From contig JAOESH010000001.1 of NCBI GenBank assembly GCA_028382005.1, positions 224,798 through 288,797 of the forward strand: DNA of 64,000 nucleotides, in the 5' to 3' direction. Made by a program: the position numbers and the translations under genes. Positions within the stretch are counted from its first letter, which is position 1; every line of letters begins with the position of its first letter. The notes beneath the pieces are model-generated. The model saw only the letters and a list, made by a program, of their open reading frames with translations. It was not told where the DNA came from and ran no database searches. Below, piece after piece: positions 44,974 to 58,381 of the stretch. The DNA is from Pseudomonadota bacterium. GTDB taxonomy: Bacteria > Pseudomonadota > Alphaproteobacteria > Puniceispirillales > Marisalimonadaceae.

Positions 44974-45858
44974 ATGAATTTTATTTTTTCACAAAAAATT
45001 ATAGCTGTGCTTCTCTTAATTTTATTAGTTTTAGTTTGGAGTTCAGTTTGGTCATTGTTTAGGATTGCTATGGAAGTGATCCCTCCTTTGAGTTTCAGGG
45101 TTATTATAGGCCTACCTGCTTTCATGTTGTTATTATTACTTGGGTTTAAAAAAATGAAAACCGTTAATGTTCCCTCGAATGAATGGAAGTCTCTTTTGTT
45201 AATTAGCTTTTTTAATGTAACATTGTGGCAGGTACTGATGTTATATGGAATTGGTATGCTTGGTGGAGGAAGAGCTGCTGTCTTAACTTACACTATGCCA
45301 GTTTGGGCAACTATTTTTGCATCTATATTTGGTTATGAAAAAATTAATATTTCCATAATTATTTCATTAATCTTTGGAATAATTGGTATATTTTTTCTAT
45401 CCATTGAAATAAATATTTTTGAAAATATGTTAGGTTTTTTAATAACACTCTCTGCCGGTTTAAGTTGGGCAATAGGCACAATGATTGTAAAATATGGAGG
45501 TATTAAGTCAGATGGATTAATTGTAGCAGGTTGGCAACAAATAATCGGCATACTGCCTATCATACCTTTTGCATTCTACTTTGATTTGAATAACTTTGGA
45601 TCGATTGAATTTAGACATATACTAGTGATTCTATTTGGAATCTTTTTATCAAGTGCTTATACATATTGGGCTTATTTTACCGTTTTACAAAAATTTTCAG
45701 TCAATATTACATCTATTTCTGTAATGGCTGTTCCAGTTTTAGCTGTTTTAATTGATTACATTATTATTGATGTTGAATTTTCTATTTTTGACTTATTAGC
45801 TTTAATTTTTATAGTTACAGGGATTTTTGTAGCAGCTAAAAAACCATTTAATAATTAA
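44974..45858 (+). CDS. EamA/DMT superfamily transporter
   Basis: 294-residue inner-membrane exporter with ten helices and duplicated EamA halves. The first half begins LVLVWSSVWSLFRIAMEVIPPLSFRVI and the GGGRAAVLTYTMPVWATIFA stretch marks the end of it. It is single, facing convergent recQ. Substrate unknown. Confidence 0.8.
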   Translation: MNFIFSQKIIAVLLLILLVLVWSSVWSLFRIAMEVIPPLSFRVIIGLPAFMLLLLLGFKKMKTVNVPSNEWKSLLLISFFNVTLWQVLMLYGIGMLGGGRAAVLTYTMPVWATIFASIFGYEKINISIIISLIFGIIGIFFLSIEINIFENMLGFLITLSAGLSWAIGTMIVKYGGIKSDGLIVAGWQQIIGILPIIPFAFYFDLNNFGSIEFRHILVILFGIFLSSAYTYWAYFTVLQKFSVNITSISVMAVPVLAVLIDYIIIDVEFSIFDLLALIFIVTGIFVAAKKPFNN

Positions 45859-45883: not shown

Positions 45884-47698
45884 TTATAAATGTTCCACAA
45901 TCTTATTTATAAATAATTCACCATATTTTTGAAACTTTGTTTCTCCTACACCGTCAATTTTAAGCATGTCTGTCTGATTGTTAGGTTTAATCTGTGACAT
46001 TTGGATTAAAGAACTATCATGGAAAATCGTATATGCTGGTAGGTTTCTCTTTTTAGCAATATTAAGTCTAAGAGCTTTAAGAGCATTGAGTAAATCTAAA
46101 TTTTCAGTAGATCTATCTTTATTTTGATATCTATTATTTTTTGTAAATTTTTTGTCTCTTTTTAATAGTATGTCTTTATAAAAAAAATTTTTTTCATTTT
46201 TTAAAATTTTTACACCAATCTCTGATATTTGAATAGCACCATATCTTTGAAAATTTATTTGTAAATGTCCATAAGCAAGTAATTGTCTTAAGAATGACTG
46301 CCAAAAATCCTTTGATTTATCTTTACCAATTCCATAAACTGATAAACGTTGATGCCCCCTTTCAACAATTTTTTTATCCTCTGACCCTCTAATGACATTT
46401 ATTACGTGAGCCTGACCAAAATACTGGCCAGTCTTATAAATTGTTGATAAGAGCTTTTGGGCTAGGACTGTTCCGTCTATTAATTTAGGTGGATTTAGAC
46501 AATTGTCACAATTATTACAACTTTTAGGCACATCGTCAAAATAAGCTAATAGAACTTTTCTTCGACACTCTGGTGTTTCAGAATAAGAAAGTAAAAAATC
46601 TAATCTTTTATTTTCCCTCAGTTTATATTCATTTTCTGAAATGCTATCTTCTATCATTCTTCTCCTTATTACTAAATCGTCTAAACCGTATATCATTAAA
46701 GTATCGGCAGGTTTGCCGTCACGGCCTGCTCTTCCAATTTCTTGATAATACGACTCCATGCTTCCTGGAAGATTTAAATGGACAACGAACCTAATATCAG
46801 GTTTATCTATTCCCATGCCAAACGCAATTGTAGCGACAACGATATGAGATTGTGCTGTCATAAATATATTTTGAACTTTTTTTCTAACTGATGCGTGTAA
46901 ACCAGCATGATAACAACTGGCATTAAAACCCTTTTTAATTAAAAAAGAAGAAACCTCTTCAGTTTTTTTTCTCGATAAGCAATATATTATACCAGATTGT
47001 TCTTTTCTAGGATTTAAGAAATCAATAATCTGTATCTTCCAATTTGTTTTTTGATTAATCGAAAGACTTAAATTTGGCCTATCAAAACCTTTAACAAATA
47101 GTTTTGCATCATTATCAAAAATCTTATTTATAATATCTAATCTTGTTGTTTTATCAGCAGTTGCGGTAAAACCAACAATATTACTCTTTGGGAAAATTAT
47201 TTTTAATTTAGATAATTTTTCGTAGTCCGGTCTAAAACTTTGACCCCATTTTGATACACAATGTATTTCATCAATTACAAACAAACCAATTTCAAATGAC
47301 TTTAAATTATTAATCATATTGTCTGTCATTAGTCTTTCAGGTGAAATATAAAGAATGTTAGTCTTGCCGTTTTTAAAATTTTCCCATGAAGAAGCTAGTT
47401 CTTCTCTTGACTGGTTAGAATGAAGCTGTTCAACGTTAACTCCACACTCTTTTAAACTAGAAACTTGATCTTCAATAAGAGCTATCAAGGGAGCAATTAC
47501 TATAGTTTTTTTTTTAGACATTACAGCTGGTAGTTGGTAACAAAGTGATTTGCCTGCACCTGTAGGCATTATAGCAAGTGTCTGTTTTTCACTCAAAATA
47601 TTTTCAACTATTTCCTTTTGTCCATACTTATAGTCGGAAAAACCAAAAATATTTTTTAATATTTTGATCGCTTTTTCATTTAATTGTAAAGAGTTCAT
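45884..47698 (-). CDS. recQ: ATP-dependent DNA helicase RecQ
   Basis: 604-residue 3'-5' helicase. Walker A MPTGAGKSLCYQLP near residue 41-54, DEIH box in VIDEIHCVSKWGQSFRPDY, motif V/VI HLNLPGSMESYYQEIGRAGRDG, then the zinc site (CRRKVLLAYFDD and SCNNCDNCLNPP), the winged helix and a short C-terminal HRDC domain (about 525-604). Complete, single gene. It is the last core gene before the island; 68 bases separate its start from the 12-nt tRNA-end copy. Confidence 0.94.
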   Translation of the reverse strand: MNSLQLNEKAIKILKNIFGFSDYKYGQKEIVENILSEKQTLAIMPTGAGKSLCYQLPAVMSKKKTIVIAPLIALIEDQVSSLKECGVNVEQLHSNQSREELASSWENFKNGKTNILYISPERLMTDNMINNLKSFEIGLFVIDEIHCVSKWGQSFRPDYEKLSKLKIIFPKSNIVGFTATADKTTRLDIINKIFDNDAKLFVKGFDRPNLSLSINQKTNWKIQIIDFLNPRKEQSGIIYCLSRKKTEEVSSFLIKKGFNASCYHAGLHASVRKKVQNIFMTAQSHIVVATIAFGMGIDKPDIRFVVHLNLPGSMESYYQEIGRAGRDGKPADTLMIYGLDDLVIRRRMIEDSISENEYKLRENKRLDFLLSYSETPECRRKVLLAYFDDVPKSCNNCDNCLNPPKLIDGTVLAQKLLSTIYKTGQYFGQAHVINVIRGSEDKKIVERGHQRLSVYGIGKDKSKDFWQSFLRQLLAYGHLQINFQRYGAIQISEIGVKILKNEKNFFYKDILLKRDKKFTKNNRYQNKDRSTENLDLLNALKALRLNIAKKRNLPAYTIFHDSSLIQMSQIKPNNQTDMLKIDGVGETKFQKYGELFINKIVEHL

Positions 47699-47765
47699 AA
47701 ATTTTATAAAAAGTATTTTAAAGGATTAATAATCAAAAAACATTATAATTACATATTGAAATTTT

Positions 47766-47777
47766 TGGCGGAGAGGA
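47766..47777. repeat. Partial duplicate of the tRNA-Ser 3' end (left island boundary)
   Basis: Twelve bases identical to positions 58292-58303, after which the sequences diverge. This is the pattern left when an element integrates in a tRNA 3' end. It lies just upstream of recQ. Confidence 0.55.
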
Positions 47778-47832
47778 CCTCCTCACCTATTCAGTATAAC
47801 TATCTGAATTATGTATGTTTTATATTTTTATT

Positions 47833-47860
47833 TTTATTCAGTCTACAATTTAGTCTACAA
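47833..47860. repeat. 28-nt arm-type repeat, copy 1
   Basis: AGTCTACAA twice with a TTT spacer (47840-47848 and 47852-47860), preceded by TTTATTC. It is identical to 50370-50397. Tandem 9-mers near a tRNA-end sequence resemble the arm sites of tyrosine integrases. Confidence 0.6.
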
Positions 47861-47866
47861 AAACAC

Positions 47867-48016
47867 TCATTCTGATGGACAAAATTCTTCTTTATTAGAT
47901 TTTATGAGAAACTTTTTTATTTCATCGCTCAGTCTATCTCGGTTAACACAAACAAAATCTTGATTTGGTTGACGTGGTAAAATTTCTAATAAATTACCCT
48001 CATAATCTCTTATTGT
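47867..48016 (-). pseudogene. C-terminal fragment of an unknown gene
   Basis: An open stretch of 49 codons on the minus strand without a start codon, reading TIRDYEGNLLEILPRQPNQD and ending NKEEFCPSE before its stop at 47867. A stop codon made by GTCTAC cuts it at 48017-48019. It looks like the tail of a gene broken by a recombination event; the family is not recognised. Confidence 0.4.
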
Positions 48017-48249
48017 CTACACGCCTTGGAAATCATTTGGGTAGTTCTGAACTCGCAATAAAAAAGGCTCTATTCGAGGCTGGAATGTTAGCAAAAGATG
48101 GTGAGGGCCGATACACAAAAAAAGTGAGTGTAGAGGGACGGCGCGAAAATGTTACATGCATTCAAGTTAGTCTCTTAATGGATATTGAAGAAATTGAGAG
48201 AGAGCCGTCCGAGGATGATGAACCTCTTGAAGACAACTTACCATTCTGA
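48015..48249 (+). pseudogene. C-terminal fragment of a phage/satellite replication protein
   Basis: Codons from about 48020 read TRLGNHLGSSELAIKKALFE, then AKDGEGRYTKKVSVEGRRENVT and a tail ending EDNLPF. The winged-helix-like fragment followed by an acidic tail ending in NLPF resembles the C terminus of phage or satellite primase/AAA replication proteins. The frame remains open upstream to a TTG at 47965, but the region left of the GTCTACA at 48014-48020 belongs to the minus-strand fragment. GGGACA/TGTCCC iterons start right at its end, fitting a replication origin. Confidence 0.4.
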
Positions 48250-48446
48250 TGTCCCACTGTCCCGTTTGTCCCAGTATATAATAGGCCCCCCAAAAAAATA
48301 TTCATCTTTTTTACTTATCAATACATAACAACTTTATAAGAGGTATATAATAATATTGGGACAGTGGGACACTTCAACTTAACTATATGATTTATATGGG
48401 ATATTAGCTGTCCCAGTTGCAATATCGTACTGGGACAATTGGGACA
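48250..48446. repeat. GGGACA/TGTCCC iteron cluster
   Basis: Eight copies in about 200 bases: TGTCCC at 48250, 48258, 48267 and 48409; GGGACA at 48358, 48366, 48432 and 48441. Spacing of 8-9 bases inside each group and both orientations suggest a replication-initiator binding region of a phage satellite or plasmid. The rest of the 48250-48625 gap holds an inverted repeat CGCAAA/TTTGCG near 48508-48532 and no gene. Confidence 0.5.
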
Positions 48447-48625
48447 CAACACCATATTTGGGAATGACCTATTGCGCGGAGGTTAAATAGCATCGTTCGC
48501 AAACCGCAGTTCTTTATTTGCGTTCCACAGCTCCTTACATAGGCTTTGACGTCTTTATAGTAGGGCTTTTCTTAGTTTAAGATTATTGTTCTCGGTAGGT
48601 AACAAGATATAGTGTTTTCACTCTC

Positions 48626-49006
48626 TTAGAGTTTGCCCCAATCTTTGCGCCAGTTCTTCTCCAAATGCCCGTAGTCAACGAACCAGGATTCTAACTCCTT
48701 AAGTTCATTTTGTATCTTGCGTCTTTTCTCAGCTATTTGTTTGGCCTTTTCACGCTCCGACTTTGTAAATCTTCCATGCTTAATTTTAGATTCTACGAGG
48801 CGTTTAAGGCCGTCCTTAGTCCTTGGTCCTGTGCTAGCGCCGCCATGTAGTCTACATCGACCCACTGGTAATTTAGCGGGTCTTTGACATAGTGTACCTC
48901 TTCTGGTTTTTGCTTTGCACCTTTGACCTGGCCAATTAGGCCCAAAACGCCAGGGTATACCTTTTAAAAGGTTTCTTTTTGTTATCTTGTGAATATTACC
49001 TATCAT
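48626..49006 (-). CDS. HGGxSTG motif protein
   Basis: 126-residue basic protein with CKAKTRRGTLCQRPAKLPVG, then CRLHGGASTGPRTKDGLKRL, a compact cysteine/histidine set (four cysteines plus histidine, possible zinc site), and a helical, lysine-rich C-terminal half. HGGxSTG proteins are common in phages and prophages; their function is not known. It supports a mobile origin for this end of the island. Confidence 0.72.
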   Translation of the reverse strand: MIGNIHKITKRNLLKGIPWRFGPNWPGQRCKAKTRRGTLCQRPAKLPVGRCRLHGGASTGPRTKDGLKRLVESKIKHGRFTKSEREKAKQIAEKRRKIQNELKELESWFVDYGHLEKNWRKDWGKL

Positions 49007-49161
49007 GAGGTTTTATTATACCACAAATTAATACACTTATCAGCAGTGTGGTTACTTGAAACTAAAGTCCATGGTCATTGGATGGTGTTACTTTGACTAT
49101 GGTTGCTTAAGGAGTAGAACTTCTTGCCTTAAAAATACTTTACTCATATTTGTTTTAATAA

Positions 49162-49599
49162 TTAAGAAGTAACATTAACAAATGAATTAACTATATTCAT
49201 GGCTATTGCTGTACCACTAATGGCAGAACCAATCATAATGGCTCTATCACTCCATTGCATTCCAACATAAATCCAACCAACAGTACTAATTAAATAAGCA
49301 ATTTGACCATAAAGTGTAAATGATGCACTTATTAAAAAAACACCCGCCACAGCTAATAACATTGACAGCCATTTAACATACCAATCAGGTGTGCCTGTAG
49401 GGGTGGTCGGTTTAATATCATCATACTCTGTTTGAAGTTCTTCTAATTCCTGCTTTAATCTTCTTTTCTCATGAGATAATTCCATGGCTAACCTACCAGC
49501 CTTTGTCATAGTGCTACCAGTAAGATTAGAACTTATTTCACTTATTTCACTAATTTCATTAGTGTCTGATTGTACTAAAGTTATATTTTTATCTTCCAT
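49162..49599 (-). CDS. Membrane protein of phage/island type, unknown function
   Basis: 145-residue protein. Residues 40-65 are a coiled coil (KRRLKQELEELQTEYDD), followed by a proline/threonine linker, then three membrane helices (about 75-95, 98-113, 118-140). No signal or motif recognised. It lies between the HGGxSTG gene and a short rightward ORF in the accessory part of the island. Confidence 0.5.
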   Translation of the reverse strand: MEDKNITLVQSDTNEISEISEISSNLTGSTMTKAGRLAMELSHEKRRLKQELEELQTEYDDIKPTTPTGTPDWYVKWLSMLLAVAGVFLISASFTLYGQIAYLISTVGWIYVGMQWSDRAIMIGSAISGTAIAMNIVNSFVNVTS

Positions 49600-49759
49600 G
49601 ATCTTAATCCATAAAAAGTTTGACTTTAAGTTTCTTTATCACAATTAATTACAATTAGATAATCAAAAAGGGAATCTAGAAATTAATAGCTTAAAGAAAT
49701 GAAAGAGCAAAACTTAGTAATTAATGTGAAACTTAGAATAGAGATAAGGATTAAATATC

Positions 49760-49966
49760 TTGAAACCTGGTGATAAATTTTATTTAATTGAAAATCTTGA
49801 TATTTATGTTGTAATTATAGATGAAAAAATTATGAACAACATTCCTCATTATAATATTGTCATTTATAGAGGTAAATCAGAGACTCAAAGTTATTTAAGC
49901 AAAATAGCAATAGAAACTTTTTATCAAAAATCTCCAATAAGAAAAAAAGGTTTTTTTGAAAGGTAA
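49760..49966 (+). CDS. Small hypothetical protein
   Basis: 68-residue ORF from a TTG at 49760; MKPGDKFYLIENLDIYVVII at the start and a basic tail GFFER. An AAGGA site lies 10-12 bases before. No family recognised. It is 30 bases before repeat copy A, and composition is AT-rich, so the coding call is modest. Confidence 0.4.
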   Translation: MKPGDKFYLIENLDIYVVIIDEKIMNNIPHYNIVIYRGKSETQSYLSKIAIETFYQKSPIRKKGFFER

Positions 49967-49995
49967 CTACAAACAAAAAAACCAAACACCATCTC

Positions 49996-50106
49996 CACCA
50001 ACCCATCCTTGAACCCTGGTCCATGCTCCACGGACTACGGTCAATGGGCAGAGCACCCCCTGACCATTGACCATTGTTGATTAGGAAAAGGGTGCAGTAA
50101 CCCTTT
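49996..50106 (+). repeat. Dispersed structured repeat, copy A
   Basis: About 110 bases, nearly identical to 58069-58181 and partly to 55009-55117. Three potential hairpins: GTCCAT/ACGGAC, GGTCAATGG/CCATTGACC (9-bp stem, 16-base loop) and AGGGT/ACCCT (6-base loop). All copies have the same orientation. No coding potential; a minus-strand ORF across it is an artefact. Confidence 0.75.
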
Positions 50107-50369
50107 ACTTTCAAAATTAGATTAACCTAATTCTAGAAAGGTAAAGTGTTTAACCTATATTTCAATATTCACCTGCACATATCTAAACAATTGACTAGCC
50201 GTCTTGTGACCACTTATTTAATTAATTATGTGGGGTAATATTTGGAGTATATTTAACGTTACTTAATAAAATGATTCAAAATCAATTACTTATGAGAGAT
50301 GGTGTCAGACCCTCCCTCCTCGTTATCTCATTTTAATCATCAGATTTAATTAGATTTTATCGAATAATA

Positions 50370-50397
50370 TTTATTCAGTCTACAATTTAGTCTACAA
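50370..50397. repeat. 28-nt arm-type repeat, copy 2
   Basis: Identical to 47833-47860. It lies 36 bases before the epimerase start, so a block of about 2.5 kb with the phage debris is bracketed by direct copies. The remaining sequence from 50107 to 50369 holds a small inverted repeat (AATTAG/CTAATT) and no gene. Confidence 0.65.
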
Positions 50398-50432
50398 CAA
50401 TATTGTTAGTAAATTATATTTTTGAGGAATAC

Positions 50433-51329
50433 ATGACAAAAGCTAAAATATTTGTAACTGGCGGAAGTGGAAAAGCTGGAAAACATCTAATCCCATATTT
50501 ATTAGAAAAAGATTATTCCGTTGTAAATGCAGACCTTGTTCCACTTGTAATGGATGGAGTTGACAATATAAACTTGGATATAACTGACTCTGGTCAAGTT
50601 TTTAATGCTTTATCTGGTTACGCAAACATACCTGAACTTAAATCAGGTGAAGGTCTAAAAAGTTTTAAAGCAGTTGTTCATTTAGCAGCAATACCAAGAA
50701 TTTTAGTCAAACCAGATAATGAAACATTTCGTATTAATACATTAGGAACTTACAATGTAATCGAAGCTGCTACAAAACTAGGGATTAAAAAAATTATCTT
50801 TGCTTCTTCAGAAACAACATACGGTTTTTGTTTTGCCCAAGGCAATCCAATTCCCAAATGGCTTCCAATTGAAGAGGACTATGAGACAAGTCCTACTGAT
50901 AGCTATGGACTTTCAAAAGTTTTAAACGAACAAACTGGTAAAGCTTTTCAAAAAAGAACTGGAATTGATATTTATGCATTAAGAATAGGAAATATCATTG
51001 AACCTGATGAATATCCCAGGTTCGAAGAATTTTGTAAAAATCCAAGTGTAAGATTAAGAAATCTTTTTAATTATATTGATGCTAGAGACTTAGCTCAAGC
51101 AATTGAACTATGTATTAAAAAAGATGGGCTTGGTTATGAGGTTTTTAATGTTACTCATGATATTAATTCAGTTAGTTTAACGACTGAGGAAATAATTAAG
51201 CAATTTTTTCCTAATACAAAAATGAGAAGAGAAATGAAAAAATATGAGTCAATACTATCTTCTAGAAAAATCAGAGATGTTCTTGGTTTTAAGCCCATGC
51301 ATGATTGGAAAAAATATTTAAAAGTTTAA
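50433..51329 (+). CDS. NAD-dependent epimerase/dehydratase family protein
   Basis: 298-residue extended short-chain dehydrogenase. Starts at the ATG at 50433 with a GAGGAAT site; the upstream in-frame start at 50403 would overlap the arm repeat. Cofactor loop GGSGKAGKH (residues 10-18), AAIPRI, and catalytic YGLSK are present. In the island, 18 bases ahead of the dienelactone-hydrolase-like gene. Likely acts on a nucleotide sugar or similar; substrate unknown. Confidence 0.8.
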   Translation: MTKAKIFVTGGSGKAGKHLIPYLLEKDYSVVNADLVPLVMDGVDNINLDITDSGQVFNALSGYANIPELKSGEGLKSFKAVVHLAAIPRILVKPDNETFRINTLGTYNVIEAATKLGIKKIIFASSETTYGFCFAQGNPIPKWLPIEEDYETSPTDSYGLSKVLNEQTGKAFQKRTGIDIYALRIGNIIEPDEYPRFEEFCKNPSVRLRNLFNYIDARDLAQAIELCIKKDGLGYEVFNVTHDINSVSLTTEEIIKQFFPNTKMRREMKKYESILSSRKIRDVLGFKPMHDWKKYLKV

Positions 51330-51347
51330 ATTAAAGGTGATAATATA

Positions 51348-52076
51348 ATGAAATTACTTGTTTTTTTGTTTTTTGTTTTGATTTCTATAAATGTTAATGC
51401 AGGTCAAAAATTAACTTATTCTTATAATAACGAAATATTTGAGGGTTATCTTAGTAATCCAAAATCACAGTCAAAGGGTTTGATTATACTTATTCATGAT
51501 TGGGATGGTTTAACAAAATACGAAGAAAAAAGAACGGATATGTTATCTTCTCTAGGATATACAGTCTTCGCTGTTGACTTGTATGGAAAAGGTAATCGTC
51601 CAAAAGAAATGAAACTTAGAAAAGCAGAAACAAGAAAGCTTTACGAGAATCGTACTAGAATGAGGGAACTAATATTAGCTGGTATTAATGAAGTTAATAT
51701 AAAAAAACAAAAAACATTTGTTATGGGTTACTGCTTTGGAGGGTCTGCGGCACTTGAATTGGCTAGGTCAGGTAAGGGAAAAAATATTGTAGGCTACGCC
51801 TCTTTTCATGGAGGTCTTAAAACTCCTGAAGGACAAAACTATACCACAAATACCCCACCAATATTTATAGCTCATGGTGGAGCTGATAAAGCAGTGAAAT
51901 TAGAAGATGTTTTTAAAATTACTAATGAATTAGAAAAAAATAAAATAATATATGAAATCAACATCTATTCTGGAGCTCCACACGCATTTACAGTCTTTAA
52001 TTCAAAAAGGTACAGAAAGAAAGCGGATGAAAAATCTTGGGAATCATTCTTAAGTTTTGTAGAAAAGGAAATGTAA
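51348..52076 (+). CDS. Exported dienelactone-hydrolase family protein
   Basis: 242-residue alpha/beta hydrolase with a signal peptide (1-18, LVFLFFVLISINVNAG). The nucleophile elbow is VMGYCFGGSA (cysteine nucleophile as in dienelactone hydrolase), with acid Asp in AHGGADKAV and His in GAPHAFTVF. It is probably periplasmic. Follows the epimerase by 18 bases. Substrate unknown. Confidence 0.83.
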   Translation: MKLLVFLFFVLISINVNAGQKLTYSYNNEIFEGYLSNPKSQSKGLIILIHDWDGLTKYEEKRTDMLSSLGYTVFAVDLYGKGNRPKEMKLRKAETRKLYENRTRMRELILAGINEVNIKKQKTFVMGYCFGGSAALELARSGKGKNIVGYASFHGGLKTPEGQNYTTNTPPIFIAHGGADKAVKLEDVFKITNELEKNKIIYEINIYSGAPHAFTVFNSKRYRKKADEKSWESFLSFVEKEM

Positions 52077-52124
52077 TTAATAAAAAATTATAAAATCATT
52101 TATTTGGATATTATAGAACTATAA

Positions 52125-52151
52125 TTACTCAGTCCAAAATTTAGTCTACAA
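52125..52151. repeat. Degenerate arm-type repeat, copy 3
   Basis: TTACTCAGTCCAAAATTTAG and onward carries one intact AGTCTACAA (52143-52151) and one changed copy (AGTCCAAAA). It follows the hydrolase gene, so the epimerase-hydrolase pair is flanked by arm repeats as a cassette of about 1.75 kb. Confidence 0.45.
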
Positions 52152-52200
52152 CTTGAGTTTTATACAAATAAAATTTGTTGTTAGAAATTATATTTAGTAC

Positions 52201-52383
52201 CTATTGTAAATAAGTAATATCGGTTTTACCTATATAATATTTATCATAACCTGCAACTAGAGAGAGGTTATCACTAATTTTATACTCAGAGCCCAAACCA
52301 ACAATTATTTTGGTTCCGTCATATTTTGCTGAGCCTGATGTGAGTGAACCAATAATTTTAGCTTTTAATTTTCTATCCGCCAT
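52201..52383 (-). pseudogene. Fragment of an outer-membrane beta-barrel protein
   Basis: A 60-codon ORF on the minus strand. Its GLGSEYKISDNLSLVAGYDK and preceding SAKYDGTKIIV are alternating beta strands of porin/Opa-like barrels. No signal peptide, no aromatic C terminus and too short for a barrel, so it is a remnant. It is 120 bases from the end of the hydrolase gene. Confidence 0.35.
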
Positions 52384-52663
52384 AATTCATAATAAAACAT
52401 AATGAAAACAATAGGTTACATAAAGATATTTCTTTCTACCCACATTAAAATAATTCTTAAACGTTTCTCCGAAATACTGGTATCAGCACCCCTACCCCCT
52501 GGATGCACCCCACTTCTCAAACTGGGAATCCTATATATATATGACTAATCTGAACGAAGGAAGGCTAAAACGGGAAATTCCAGGAGATTTAAAAAAACTT
52601 GATTAATTAATTCTTCACGTGTGTAATTAGGTTAAATTAATGTAAATTTTATAAGGATATTTT

Positions 52664-53674
52664 ATGAATATAAACACCACAATTTCAGGAAGTTTACCAA
52701 AGCCAAGCTGGCTTGCTGAAGGAGAAAAAATTTGGGCTCCTTGGAAATTATCTGGAGAAGAGCTTTTAGAAGCAAAAGCAGATGCCTTAAAAATTGCAGT
52801 TTCAGACCAAGATCTTGCAGGTATTTCTATAATATGCGATGGAGAGCAAACTAGACAACATTTTGTTACAACTTTTATAGAAGGTTTAAGTGGTGTAAAT
52901 TTTCAAGATAAAAAAACAGTTAAGATAAGAGATAGATATGATGCAGAAGTTCCAATAATTTTTGAAAAAGTTCATAGAAAAAAACCTGTTTTTTTAAATG
53001 ATGCTAAATTATTGAGATCACTTACCAAAAAACCAATTAAGTATACTCTTCCTGGTCCTATGACTATGATAGACACACTTTATGATAACTTTTATGGAAG
53101 TAGAGAAAAATTAGCTTTTGAGTTTGCTGAAATCTTAAATGAAGAAGCTAAAGAGCTTTGTGATGCAGGTGTAGATATTATTCAATTTGATGAACCTGCT
53201 TTTAATGTCTTTTTTGATGATGTTAAAAACTGGGGTATCTCGGCTCTTGAGAGAGCTTGTGAAGGATTAAATAAAACTGCGGTTCATATATGTTATGGAT
53301 ATGGGATTGAAGCTAATATTAAATGGAAAAATACATTAGGAAATGAGTGGAGACAATACGAAAACATTTTTCCAGCATTAGCAAATAGTTCTATAAATCA
53401 AGTTAGTTTAGAGTGTATAAATTCAAAAGTGCCAATTGAATTAATTAGCTTATTAAATAATAAGGAAGTTATGATTGGTGTTATTGATGTTGCTAGTAAC
53501 GAAATAGAAACTCCTGATAATATAAATCAAGTTTTAAAAAACGCTTCTAATTATATTGACAAAAAAAATATAATTGCATGTACTAATTGCGGTTTGGTGC
53601 CTCTGAAAAGGAAAGTAGCCAGGCAAAAATTAAGTGCTTTGGTTGAAGGTGCAAAAATTTTTTCTGAAAGCTAA
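52664..53674 (+). CDS. Core methionine synthase (folate-independent, MesD-like)
   Basis: 336-residue MetE C-terminal-like enzyme. GSLPKPSWLAEGEKIWAPWK at the start, DGEQTRQHFVTTFIEGLSG, QFDEPAFNVF, and zinc ligands HICYGYG and CTNCGLVP are present. The single-domain size excludes classical MetE, which is twice as long, and the signature best resembles the oxygen-dependent MesD. MesD needs a DUF1852 partner (MesX), which is not seen in the window. The methyl donor is unknown. Preceded by 280 bases without a gene. Confidence 0.72.
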   Translation: MNINTTISGSLPKPSWLAEGEKIWAPWKLSGEELLEAKADALKIAVSDQDLAGISIICDGEQTRQHFVTTFIEGLSGVNFQDKKTVKIRDRYDAEVPIIFEKVHRKKPVFLNDAKLLRSLTKKPIKYTLPGPMTMIDTLYDNFYGSREKLAFEFAEILNEEAKELCDAGVDIIQFDEPAFNVFFDDVKNWGISALERACEGLNKTAVHICYGYGIEANIKWKNTLGNEWRQYENIFPALANSSINQVSLECINSKVPIELISLLNNKEVMIGVIDVASNEIETPDNINQVLKNASNYIDKKNIIACTNCGLVPLKRKVARQKLSALVEGAKIFSES

Positions 53675-53856
53675 ATATTAATTTTAACTTTTGCCTTAAA
53701 CCATTCATTTAACCTTGAACAAAAGTTTGAAATTGGTCTCCTAAGCCTTCAAGTCCAAGCTTCATTTTAGTCCTAGGGTCATAGATAGTGGAAAGTTGTT
53801 TTTTGGTTGTGTTTTATTAGCTTTTAAATGTTTCCTTTTGTTTCTTTTTTATGATT

Positions 53857-54825
53857 TTATATTTTTATTTTATTCAGTTCTGATTTTAGAAATAATGCAA
53901 TTTCTTCCATACCATTTTTGTTGTTAATTGATTGTTTTTCAGCGTTTAAATTATAGTTTGTATTAGTATTTATATCATAGAAGATTGGAACACCATCTTT
54001 GTTCCTTATAAATTCAACTCCTGCGACTTCTATTTGATGTTTTTTTAAAAAGAGGGTTAATTCTTTGGCTAGCTCTTTATCAGGTGTCTTGTCTATAAAA
54101 AAACTAGGTTGAGAATTTTTTATATCATTTATTTCATTAACAGGACAAAATTCATCAAAGTCAATTTCACATGTATCAGCAGGGCATAATTCAAAACTAT
54201 TTTTACTATAGACTTTTAATGAGTATATAAAATTTCCTCCTACAAATTCCATTCGAGTTATAAAATCATCATTTGTAGAAATTTTTTCCTGTAACAACCA
54301 TGTGTCATCCTTAGAAGAAGTAATTAAGTTATCTTTAAGCATTGTATCAAGTTCATTAATTGTATTTATCAATTTTACACCAAAGCCTTTACCACCTTGA
54401 TTAGGTTTAACTATCATAGGATAAATATTTAAATTGGAAGCTGCTTCTTTAATTCTATTTGTTCCAACAGCAACAATTGTTTTTGGGGTTTTAAAACCAC
54501 TCTTTTTTAACAATAACTGTTGCAATACTTTAGAAAATTCTAGTTCTAAAACATTAGTCCCATTAATAACTCGTCTGTTATGATTTTCTAACCATGTTAA
54601 AATTATATTTGTACTTTGATTAGAGTGTAAGTGATTACGTGTAAAATTTGATGCGCTCATACGAGAAAAAAAAACACCATTTGGTGGAGTTTTATCAATG
54701 TTTATGATCATATCATTTAAGAGCCATTCTTCATATTGAACATCAAACTTCTTAAGAGCTTTACGTAAAGGTATCAACCATTCTTCATTTTCATGAATAA
54801 TATATGATTTTAATTGATTTTTCAT
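53857..54825 (-). CDS. ATP-grasp ligase (RimK-like)
   Basis: 322-residue ATP-grasp enzyme, which joins a carboxylate to an amine. ATP and magnesium features are KPNQGGKGFGVKLI, LLQEKI, RMEFVGGNFIYS and the C-terminal GVEFIRNKDGVPIFYDINTN. Substrates are not readable; RimK-type glutamate ligases are the closest. It is isolated in the island between the methionine synthase gene (convergent) and repeat copy B. Confidence 0.78.
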   Translation of the reverse strand: MKNQLKSYIIHENEEWLIPLRKALKKFDVQYEEWLLNDMIINIDKTPPNGVFFSRMSASNFTRNHLHSNQSTNIILTWLENHNRRVINGTNVLELEFSKVLQQLLLKKSGFKTPKTIVAVGTNRIKEAASNLNIYPMIVKPNQGGKGFGVKLINTINELDTMLKDNLITSSKDDTWLLQEKISTNDDFITRMEFVGGNFIYSLKVYSKNSFELCPADTCEIDFDEFCPVNEINDIKNSQPSFFIDKTPDKELAKELTLFLKKHQIEVAGVEFIRNKDGVPIFYDINTNTNYNLNAEKQSINNKNGMEEIALFLKSELNKIKI

Positions 54826-55008
54826 AAAACATTTTTCCTAAATAAGAGTGAATTTTTAATAAACTAATGAATAATTCTATTTTGTTAAGTTAATTGTTTT
54901 TACTTGAGATATTATTTTTAAAAAAAAATGAGACAAATATTCTTAAATTAATTAAATAAGCAATTTTTTTTTCTATTGATTTTTTTGTATTTTAAAATCC
55001 TATTTCTA

Positions 55009-55133
55009 ACCAACCCAACTACTAAACCCCCGTCCATGGTCAATGGACTAAGGTCAATGGGCAGACCACCCCTTGACCAAAGATCAATGTTGATTAGGAA
55101 AAGGGTGCAGTAACCCCGGACCAGGGGCTTTTT
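55009..55133 (+). repeat. Dispersed structured repeat, copy B, with terminator-like 3' end
   Basis: Diverged copy of the repeat. Hairpin 1 is GTCCAT/ATGGAC (5-base loop) and hairpin 2 is GGTCAA/TTGACC, paired from different bases than in copies A and C. The conserved GATTAGGAAAAGGGTGCAGT is followed by CCCC, loop GGACCA, GGGG and a T5 run at 55129-55133. The gap 54826-55234 has no gene; the repeat fills most of its centre. Confidence 0.65.
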
Positions 55134-55234
55134 CTACTGTAGACTTAGGAATTTTTTTAAAAAGTTTTTGGATTGCCATCAACAAGATTGGATTTAATAT
55201 TTGGTAAATTCTATTAATTCTTACATTTGAATAA

Positions 55235-55966
55235 CTAACTATTTAATATTCTTTTTTTGATTAATTGATTGTATTTTATGTTTTTAAATTCTGATCTTGG
55301 GTAACTCATGTTTATGATTTGAGAATTTTCTATTTCTCTAGGTTTAGTTTTTTTAATGATTAAAACACGATCTGACATACTAGTAGCTTCATTGATGTCG
55401 TGAGTTACCATAATTATAGTTAGTTTTAATGAGACCCACAATTCTTTTACATGTTGATGAAGATTTGTTTTAGTAAAGCTATCCAATGCGCTAAAAGGTT
55501 CATCAAGCAAGAGAACCTTTGGTTCTCTTACAAGGGCTCTCGCAATTGCTACTCTTTGCGCCATACCTCCAGATAGTTCTCTTGGCCATAATTGTTCGCA
55601 ATTCTCAAGACCTACTTTTTGAAGTGTTTTAGATATTTTTACTTTTTGTTCCTTCTTATTCTCATTTAGAATTGATAGCTTAATATTGTCATAAACATTG
55701 AGCCATGGCATTAATCGGGGGTCTTGGAAAACCATACCGATATTTGAGCTTGGTTTTTTAATAATCTTGTTATTTAGCTTTATAAACCCGGTAGAAGCTT
55801 TTTCAAGTCCTCCAATTATTCTAAGTAAAGTTGATTTGCCGCAGCCACTTTGACCTACTAATGAAATAATTTCATGATCGTTAATAAGTAAATTAGTTTT
55901 TTGAAGGGCGGCTAAATCTTTTTTATTATTTTTAAATATTTTAGATATGTTACTAATTTCAAGCAT
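55235..55966 (-). CDS. Sulfonate/nitrate-type ABC transporter ATP-binding protein
   Basis: 243-residue ATPase. Walker A GQSGCGKST, Q-loop VFQDPRLMPWLNVYDN, signature LSGGMAQR and Walker B VLLLDEPFSALD are intact. FQDPRLMPW is typical of SsuB/TauB/NrtD-type. Overlaps the permease gene by 8 bases. Substrate inferred from the SBP. Confidence 0.85.
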   Translation of the reverse strand: MLEISNISKIFKNNKKDLAALQKTNLLINDHEIISLVGQSGCGKSTLLRIIGGLEKASTGFIKLNNKIIKKPSSNIGMVFQDPRLMPWLNVYDNIKLSILNENKKEQKVKISKTLQKVGLENCEQLWPRELSGGMAQRVAIARALVREPKVLLLDEPFSALDSFTKTNLHQHVKELWVSLKLTIIMVTHDINEATSMSDRVLIIKKTKPREIENSQIINMSYPRSEFKNIKYNQLIKKRILNS

Positions 55967-56816
55967 TATTAGCCCCTACTTGCATTGTGTCTAATGATTC
56001 TTTCCATTTAAGAAATGGCTTAGCGGAAAGGTAAATTAGTTCATCAGTTAGCTTGCCAATAATTGCAAATAGTATTAATGCTCCAATTATCAAAGCTGGT
56101 CGACCAGTCATTTGGCCATCTATCATAAGATATCCAAGTCCCTCGCTTGCTCCCATAAGTTCTGCAGCTATAACAAACATCCATCCTAGTGCAAGGCCAC
56201 TTCTTAGTCCTGTAATCCATTCAGGTATTATGCCTGGAAGCAAAATCCATCGAATAGTTTGAAATAAATTTAGGTTATTAATATTAGCTACTTCAATCAT
56301 TCTTTTATCTATTTGTCTTATCCCCATCATTAAATTTAAATATACTGGGAAAAAAACTCCTACAGAAATTAGGGCTACCTTACTATTTTCAAAAATACCA
56401 AACCATAATATAAATAATGGAACCCAAGCTAATGAAGGTACAGCTTTTAAAGCTTGAATAGTTGGATCAAAAAGTTTTCTAATAAAAGGAGAAACACCTG
56501 TTAGAATTCCTAAAATTGTTGCTGCTATTCCTCCGCCTATAAATCCATAAAAAACTCTGGTTAAGGTAATTTGAATATGGCTAAATAACGTGTCTGCATT
56601 TGCAAGTATTAAAATTTCTTTTAAAACTTCGTTAGGTGTTGGTAATAAGCTGTTTCTTATAGTTTCGGTTACTGCTAAAAAATACCATATTAGTAATATA
56701 ATAACTGGGAGAATAATTCCAATTAATGGTTGGCTAAACTTTGCCTTAAATAAATTATATAAACTCTTAAGGAGCTTATATAATTTATTATTATTGATTT
56801 TAAAAAAAATATTCAT
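55959..56816 (-). CDS. Sulfonate/nitrate-type ABC transporter permease
   Basis: 285-residue inner-membrane permease, about six helices. TLTRVFYGFIGGGIAATILG at the start of the domain and the EAA-type GLRSGLALGWMFVIAAELMG are features of SsuC/TauC-type permeases. It lies in the middle of the ssu-like operon in the island. Confidence 0.84.
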   Translation of the reverse strand: MNIFFKINNNKLYKLLKSLYNLFKAKFSQPLIGIILPVIILLIWYFLAVTETIRNSLLPTPNEVLKEILILANADTLFSHIQITLTRVFYGFIGGGIAATILGILTGVSPFIRKLFDPTIQALKAVPSLAWVPLFILWFGIFENSKVALISVGVFFPVYLNLMMGIRQIDKRMIEVANINNLNLFQTIRWILLPGIIPEWITGLRSGLALGWMFVIAAELMGASEGLGYLMIDGQMTGRPALIIGALILFAIIGKLTDELIYLSAKPFLKWKESLDTMQVGANNA

Positions 56817-56832
56817 TTTTCATTTATAAAAT

Positions 56833-57822
56833 TTAGTTTTTTGATAAAAAGCTTGTGTCTACTAATTCGTTAATAACATCCTTAATAGAAACAGATGCTT
56901 TAATGATCCCAATTTTCTGTAAAATATTTCCTGCAGTTAAAAATGTGTTAATTTGCTTAGGCCCAATATTTGGATTAGTAATATCAGTTCTTTCGTTTAG
57001 TTGTTTTTGTGCAACTGCGCCTGATAATTTTACAGCTTTAATTAAAGATTGTTTTAATTCATTTGGATTTTTAATAGCGTGCAAACGATTTTCTTCATAG
57101 ATCTTTAAAACTTTTTTAACAAGTAATGGATATTTGGTAGAAAATTCCTCTCTAACATTAAGTATACCATAAGTATTTAAATCTGCGTTTCTATAGAATA
57201 ATGGTGTTTGAGTTTCTAATTCACCTTTGGCCATATGAGGATCAAGTCCAGCCCAAGCGTCCACTTGTCCACTTACTAGTGCTCTATATCCATCAGGATG
57301 TTGAAGAAGTACTGGTTTGATATCTTTTTCAGTAAGACCAACACTATCTAGAGCTTGTAATAAGAAAATATGAGGGTCTGTTCCTCTAGTAACTGCGACT
57401 CTTTTGCCAACAAGATCTTTTATGCCAGTAATACCACTATTTTTATTTGTTACTAAGGCTGTCCATTCTGGCTTAGAATATACATATATAGCTTTAATTG
57501 GAATTCCGTTAGCTCTACCTATTACAGCAGATGCTCCTGCAGTAGAACCAAAATCTATACTTCCTCCATTAAGATATTCAAGAGCCTTATTAGATCCTAA
57601 TGAAAGAACCCATCTAATTTTTATATTATCCTTTTTAAATGCTTTTTCTAATGAGCCTCTATCTTTCATAAGAAGACTTACAGGATTATAATATGCGTAA
57701 TCTATGTTTATAATTTTTGGAATTTCAGCATATGATTGGCTAGAAATAAGTGAAATAGTTGTTGATGCTATTATTGTGCCTATAAAAGTGCTGAAGAATT
57801 TTTTTGTTTTTCTAAATATCAT
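56833..57822 (-). CDS. Sulfonate-type ABC transporter binding protein
   Basis: 329-residue periplasmic protein. N-terminal signal (SLISSQSYA). The binding regions INIDYAYYNPVSLLMKDRGS, FGSTAGASAVIGRANG and ALVSGQVDAWAGLDPHMAKG resemble SsuA. First gene of the operon. Aliphatic sulfonates are the usual cargo, but taurine or nitrate relatives cannot be excluded. Confidence 0.85.
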   Translation of the reverse strand: MIFRKTKKFFSTFIGTIIASTTISLISSQSYAEIPKIINIDYAYYNPVSLLMKDRGSLEKAFKKDNIKIRWVLSLGSNKALEYLNGGSIDFGSTAGASAVIGRANGIPIKAIYVYSKPEWTALVTNKNSGITGIKDLVGKRVAVTRGTDPHIFLLQALDSVGLTEKDIKPVLLQHPDGYRALVSGQVDAWAGLDPHMAKGELETQTPLFYRNADLNTYGILNVREEFSTKYPLLVKKVLKIYEENRLHAIKNPNELKQSLIKAVKLSGAVAQKQLNERTDITNPNIGPKQINTFLTAGNILQKIGIIKASVSIKDVINELVDTSFLSKN

Positions 57823-58068
57823 TGTAATATCCTTTTAGATATAAAATTTTTTTTAATGTTTATTTAGATATATTTTATTTATAATCAACAAATTATGTTT
57901 ATTTTTCTTATTTATTCTTTTAATAAAGACATAAAAAGAAAATTATTCTTATATCCAATATTTACATAAAAGATAATTTTGATCAAAAGTTACTTGATCT
58001 TATTCAAAAAAACTCTACTCCGCACAATAGGATGTTTTTTTGCATCCATATTAATCCAAGCACTCAAT

Positions 58069-58181
58069 CCACCAACCCAACTACTAAACCCCCATCCATG
58101 CTCCATGGACTACGGTCAATGGGCAGAGCACCCCCTGACCATTGACCATTGTTGATTAGGAAAAGGGTGCAGTAACCCTTT
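58069..58181 (+). repeat. Dispersed structured repeat, copy C
   Basis: About 113 bases, near-identical to copy A over the last 85. Hairpin 1 TCCAT/ATGGA, hairpin 2 GGTCAATGG/CCATTGACC, hairpin 3 AGGGT/ACCCT. It lies 110 bases from the tRNA-Ser end. The gap 57823-58291 holds this repeat and the arm pair at 58217; no gene. Confidence 0.75.
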
Positions 58182-58216
58182 GAAGACAGTTTGTCTTGTT
58201 TTGATCTGATGCTTTG

Positions 58217-58237
58217 TGGTGGGTAGAATGGTGGGTA
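58217..58237. repeat. Paired 9-mers inside the right island end
   Basis: TGGTGGGTA twice (58217-58225 and 58229-58237), period 12, 54 bases before the tRNA-Ser 3' end. Same 9+3+9 design as the AGTCTACAA pairs at the left end, read on the other strand as TTGTAGACT. Possible arm-type sites for the right attachment end. Confidence 0.45.
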
Positions 58238-58291
58238 TAGATTTTATCTAATTAATAATATCAATTAAATCAACAACTTAATAGTATTTAA

Positions 58292-58381
58292 TGGCGGAGA
58301 GGAAGGGATTCGAACCCTTGAGAGGCGTTAACCCCAACACGCTTTCCAGGCGTGCGCCTTAAACCGCTCGGCCACCCCTCC
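58292..58381 (-). tRNA. tRNA-Ser(GGA)
   Basis: 90-base serine tRNA with long variable arm; anticodon GGA in stem GCACGC/GCGTGT. Acceptor stem GGAGGGG with CCTCTCC closes (one G-T pair), discriminator G, CCA encoded. T arm has GGTTCGAATCC. It serves as the right boundary of the putative island, whose element side is toward its 3' end. Confidence 0.97.

Follow-up and report, generated by a model that had tools for sequence, protein, structure and literature searches.

In the ICE/IME islands of streptococci, CIMEs have lost their integration genes, have kept their attachment ends and accrete in tandem (PMC5704250). The ssrA islands of Dehalococcoides lie in tandem, show direct repeats of the 3' end of the RNA gene with conserved sequence around the repeat, and include 15 islands without an integration module that carry metabolic cargo (PMC3146451). 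Tycheposons, as the term is used in a later paper, are tRNA-anchored metabolic cargo islands of streamlined aquatic bacteria with a tyrosine recombinase (PMC10872708), and phage satellites such as PICMI are characterized by int, alpA and a primase gene (PMC10803314).

The locus considered here belongs to an ocean bacterium of the SAR116 group and adjoins the tRNA-Ser(GGA) gene in a stretch of 64,000 nucleotides, all of which is referred to as the window. It resembles the CIMEs in the lost integration genes, the apparently kept ends and the probable tandem accretion at one target, and by analogy it would work like such accreted cis-mobilizable islands; integration and transfer genes are absent from the ORFs scanned in the window, and attL and attR may be represented by the two outer ends, which both have an intact core but are of two different types. 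The differences from CIMEs are that the relatives of the window are islands with P4-type integrases in which no conjugation gene was seen, and that the outer ends derive from two integrase types. Tandem islands at one RNA gene, 3'-end repeats and integrase-less cargo are shared with Dehalococcoides, in which a serine recombinase and a tmRNA target take the place of the tyrosine integrases and tRNA-Ser found here. With tycheposons, as described second-hand, the locus has in common the tRNA anchoring, the metabolic cargo and the streamlined aquatic host; however, Pfam searches of ten ORFs between the two attachment sites and tblastn with eight integrases revealed no tyrosine recombinase, as the preliminary description of this DNA had held, and the ends are composite. 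That description had likened the layout to tycheposons; membership is not claimed because the recombinase that goes with them in that paper is missing from the window. The original tycheposon description reportedly lists seven tRNAs as targets, along with additional hallmark genes. With respect to PICMI, the intact relatives of the locus have int and AlpA (both in the A...P islands described below) as well as a TerS-like gene, and others carry Prim-Pol/D5 primase genes; the difference is that no single locus with the full satellite set was seen and no helper phage is known, the window, in which none of int, alpA and primase was found, keeping debris only.

The region is best read as an accretion of mobile-island remnants at the 3' end of tRNA-Ser(GGA), with a probability of roughly three in four (about 0.77). 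Its features, in the order of the window, are as follows:

45884-47698 (-): recQ, outside the end at 47766
47766-47860 (+): intact left end, type A, formed by the core TGGCGGAGAGGA, about 60 bp and the doublet TTCAGTCTACAATTTAGTCTACAA at 47837-47860 (E 3e-19)
47965-48249 (+): 94-aa ORF, no family assigned, preceding the HGGxSTG gene
48626-49006 (-): HGGxSTG protein (NF041373)
49162-49599 (-): DUF6552 protein (Pfam)
49982-50128 (+): decayed right end, type C, 110-bp repeat (E 2e-37)
50314-50397 (+): left end, type A, without core (profile without the window, E 1.3e-19)
50433-51329 (+): NAD-dependent epimerase (Pfam), with copies at 89-92% identity
51348-52076 (+): dienelactone-hydrolase family protein (Pfam)
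52098-52150 (+): decayed left end, type A, doublet part only (profile without the window, E 3.5e-7)
52664-53674 (+): cobalamin-independent methionine-synthase family protein (NF006589, 566 bits against a cut-off of 392)
53857-54825 (-): RimK-like ATP-grasp protein (Pfam)
54999-55123 (+): partial right end, type C, 110-bp repeat only (E 1.8e-30)
55235-57822 (-): ssuB, ssuC and ssuA, sulfonate-type ABC transporter (SsuA family above cut-off)
58057-58301 (+): intact right end, type C, with 110-bp repeat, doublet TGGTGGGTAGAATGGTGGGTA at 58217-58237 and core (E 5e-52 without the window)
58292-58381 (-): tRNA-Ser(GGA), the attachment target, whose last 12 bases are the core

The tRNA-Ser(GGA) gene is conserved at 99-100% identity across 23 congeneric relatives. 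The direct repeat of its 3' end, first noted in the preliminary description, is an exact one: the 12-mer TGGCGGAGAGGA is found at 47766-47777 (+) and at 58292-58303, where it constitutes the final 12 bases of the minus-strand tRNA, CCA included. Its supposed rarity is borne out, since the 1.81-Mb genome (81% complete, all assemblies used being partial) holds the 11-base core GGCGGAGAGGA at these two sites only, and the same core read backward occurs nowhere; an abundance of the 12-mer throughout the genome, named beforehand as a sign against an island, is therefore not seen. The copy at 47766 is, as far as the sequence can tell, a true attachment scar left by integration. An Rfam scan returned the tRNA as the sole match above threshold and placed the 110-bp repeat in no family; the base composition does not set the island apart, except for 41% G+C at 48-49 kb.

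The type A end is about 95 bp long and the 12-mer at 47766 is its opening part. The doublet TTCAGTCTACAATTTAGTCTACAA, a pair of 12-bp repeats located seventy bases inward of this copy, has further copies at 50374 and at 52128, the latter with three mismatches; at most doublet sites, in unfiltered print, a copy of the tRNA-Ser 3' end is followed by CCTCCTC, an AT-rich stretch and the doublet. Among 40 congeneric SAR116 genomes, 27 contain the last 23 bases of the doublet with at most two mismatches, and none contains the backward control. The A-end profile was trained on 33 ends with the window left out, and against it the reversed window gave no match under E 0.65; the training ends of the profiles were chosen by the doublet first noticed in the window and then filtered by core, so that the count of ends is biased and the comparisons of filled and empty sites are unaffected.

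The repeats that space the blocks of the window are the 110-bp parts of type C ends, with copies at 49996-50103, 55009-55116 and 58071-58178. In the C end at 49982 the core is lost and the doublet is eroded, with a weak match (E 0.035) at 50233-50294. The outer ends of the region differ, the left one being of the P4-type A and the right one of type C, and the decayed inner ends lie at 49982, 50314, 52098 and 54999. Because left ends and right-end repeats are each present three times, the region is a composite, and the single island originally proposed is given up in favor of several. C ends were located at tRNA-Ser(GGA), at tRNA-Ser(GCT) and, in a shorter form, at tRNA-Ser(TGA). The 110-bp repeat is richer in G+C, with the inverted parts GGTCAATGG...CCATTGACC and GGGTGCAGTAACCC; its 26-base tail is found in 26 of the 40 congeneric genomes. 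The repeat lies within type C ends, yet also between cargo blocks without cores. The genome of the window has a second C end at tRNA-Ser(GCT) (L067:8728-9053; G000:C10), with another partial repeat 1.7 kb on.

From left to right, the A end at 47766 is followed by the HGGxSTG/DUF6552 debris, the partial C end at 49982-50128 and the core-less A end at 50314; then come the epimerase, the dienelactone hydrolase, the decayed A end at 52098, the methionine-synthase family protein and the RimK-like protein; the partial C repeat at 54999, ssuBCA and the intact C end lead to the tRNA. The phage or satellite debris announced in the preliminary description is represented by the HGGxSTG protein, the DUF6552 protein and one ORF without family, the 94-aa one, which occupies the position of the primase in relatives and has no sequence match to it. 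Copies of the HGGxSTG protein in relatives show 75-79% identity and lie near genes for Prim-Pol/D5 primase or DNA polymerase A. The metabolic cargo and the sulfonate transporter are likewise recognizable, SsuA and the methionine-synthase family protein above their cut-offs, together with the epimerase, the dienelactone hydrolase and the RimK-like protein; ssuA is present in 3 of the 40 genomes of the genus.

Intact relatives show a common order: tRNA-Ser (GGA or GCT), P4-type integrase, AlpA, a small TerS-like protein (its PHROGs matches are terminase small subunits), cargo and an A end. The A-type integrase, of about 393 aa, is composed of the arm-binding, central and catalytic domains Arm-DNA-bind_3, Phage_int_M and Phage_integrase; the end on its side, designated P, has its own doublet CCAGTCTACAACTCGGTCTACAA. 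Complete A...P islands are found at tRNA-Ser(GGA) in G017 (7.5 kb, with large cargo genes that by eye look like McrBC) and in G009 (11.2 kb, encoding a caspase/Sel1 protein). Within the genus, most named records that have the A-type integrase are SAR116 genomes, some labelled AG-xxx, which we take to be single-cell genomes. An integrase is present in six of seven A...P intervals (two pairs among the six share one integrase through tandem A ends, and a count by right end gives five with an integrase and one without) and in none of six A...C islands, which span 3.4 to 21.5 kb in six places with varied cargo; these intervals were probed with eight integrase sequences, which other kinds of integrase could escape. 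The C doublet lies in G022 beside a distinct P4-type integrase, next to a core flanked by two divergent integrase genes. In G061 a truncated relative of this C-type integrase is accompanied by a primase-type gene (DUF5906), an HGGxSTG gene and, at tRNA-Ser(GCT), a C end. A screen of 2.9 million viral contigs gave no A doublet, A end or 110-bp repeat; the A-type integrase and the Prim-Pol protein had no relatives there, and the C-type integrase had two distant ones (46% and 28%). At L292:4280-4700 (G022:C8), two divergent integrase genes stand back to back with a single tRNA-Ser(GCT)-type core between them, which is a tandem junction caught in place.

The tRNA-Ser(GGA) site is variable among relatives, in which it is adjoined by other cargo or by intact integrase-bearing islands. 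Filled and empty sites match up to the tRNA end at 110 of 119 positions (G005 and G018) and at 113 of 122 (G003 and G011); the junction in G006:C33 is identical to the sequence preceding the tRNA in G021 (119/119), so that an A element was inserted beside an older C end. C ends that meet A ends at one core are found as tandem junctions in G014, G023, G006, G003:C30 and G013. The last bases of the region before the tRNA agree with G036 at 123 of 124 positions, after which about 11 kb are inserted before the tRNA of the latter; the right boundary of the region is therefore a used target in a near relative. This G036 locus (L058:106-11715; G036:C19) includes a distinct 448-aa protein, which we regard as an integrase by position and sequence, and the doublet TGGGTACATTCTGGGTACA at the same tRNA-Ser(GGA) end; between the 448-aa gene and the tRNA lies a 1.35-kb unit that bears a 370-aa beta-lactamase-like gene as well as a core copy of its own. 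A gene order common to the relatives, the other observation that had been named in advance as adverse, is not seen, and the general proposal of an integrase-less island region anchored in tRNA-Ser(GGA) stands, given the scar at 47766 and the strongly variable place.

The left boundary is less sharp. recQ had been regarded as a fixed flank, which does not hold: no relative with the interval on one contig has recQ between eamA and the tRNA, and the gene, present in 12 of the 40 genomes (in two as fragments), lies in G001 inside a tRNA-Ser(GCT) island; in G030 it adjoins eamA on a contig that ends inside recQ. Because islands of some relatives include recQ in their cargo, 47766 may be a boundary between layers and not the chromosomal edge; the variable stretch may start right after eamA, at 45858, and recQ may belong to an older layer farther out. 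The flank at 47640-47765 has no close match among 39 relatives, and a search with the 131-bp left flank gave short AT-rich matches only, so that no exact pre-insertion state is available, which counts against accretion. Of the comparison with relatives that the preliminary description had called for, the variability of the place is supported, and a precisely empty counterpart of 47766 was not found.

Accretion probably proceeded as follows. In this SAR116 genus, elements with P4-type tyrosine integrases enter the CCA-proximal end of tRNA-Ser (GGA, GCT); the insertion leaves an unbroken tRNA on one side and, on the other, a brief duplicate of the tRNA 3' end together with the ~95-bp end of the element. 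Newcomers re-enter at the tRNA and push older elements outward, so that ends come to abut at shared cores. C and A elements in tandem could bring their integrase genes together at the inner junction, back to back as in G022, where a single deletion would remove both and generate an integrase-less A...C composite; at least two layers remain in the window, with A (left) and C (right) as outer ends and the integrase genes gone. The present composite would be fixed, or would move only together with an intact neighbouring element. The scar, the ends, the hot spot, the tandem junctions of the relatives and the lack of a recognisable integrase, on which this scheme builds, are established at the level of sequence.

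A coincidental 12-mer at 47766 among ordinary variable genes could appeal to the shortness of the repeat and to a site picked by eye; chance is no fair account of it because the 11-mer is found twice, just there, with a control of zero, and with the conserved ~95-bp end alongside and the filled and empty pairs at the same tRNA this explanation is negligible and was rejected. Under a different account, a single integrase-less A...C cargo element would span the outer ends and be moved in trans by the integrases of other elements, the inner ends being relics of earlier layers carried along. Both outer ends are indeed intact with the same core and the inner ones eroded, the left end occurs with the same first cargo genes in other contexts (G012, G023 and partly G006), and the recurrence of integrase-less A...C units in six places, with different sizes and cargo, could denote a working unit and not decay, which also weighs against accretion. 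However, the outer doublets differ in sequence and each fits another integrase type, and therefore a single integrase would need to accept a mismatched pair; the A-type integrase was not found in the available 81% of the window's genome, where a helper is perhaps missing only from the assembly because the genomes are partial, and the viral contigs offer no matching ends. One element is thus quite improbable.

It is unlikely, too, that two unrelated old insertions were followed by chromosomal turnover, with the layer from 47766 to about 50300 and the one ending at 58301 as the only mobile remnants and the middle genes entering by homologous recombination between 110-bp repeats. The repeat copies at 49996, 55009 and 58071 do flank cargo blocks, and in G036:C4, G062:C6 and G014:C22 such repeats part cargo blocks without recognisable cores; against this, the epimerase of G001 and that of L228 are likewise separated by about 35 bp from a type A doublet, and in L228 the opposite side holds a truncated integrase and a P end; for this reason the epimerase block arrived with an element. 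Beyond the accretion preferred for this locus, the A...C islands might form a genuine non-autonomous SAR116 class of 3 to 21 kb, which borrows the integrases of two co-resident families, or a single one tolerant of mixed ends, and thereby spreads metabolic genes among tRNA-Ser sites; this generalization is distinctly unlikely.

Islands make up much of the difference among uncultured, streamlined bacteria of the ocean. At the locus described here, draft and single-cell genomes suffice to read the attachment ends, two integrase types and the filled and empty pairs at one tRNA, and therefore the gain, stacking and stranding of cargo such as sulfonate uptake after integrase loss become testable. 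In the literature searched, no description of mixed ends from two integrase types was found, and the SAR116 genome papers among it mention neither 'integrase' nor 'genomic island'.

Arrays of the 110-bp repeat are also found elsewhere in the genus. At L290-L291 (G036:C4:10905-35530), at least six repeats on one strand, 2.4-6.2 kb apart, alternate with metabolic blocks, and the first of them is located about 110 bp from a tRNA-Met(cat), not a tRNA-Ser. In another array (L302, L297 and L294), the repeats stand between gene blocks that comprise Prim-Pol/D5 primase, HGGxSTG and branched-chain/urea-type ABC transporter genes.
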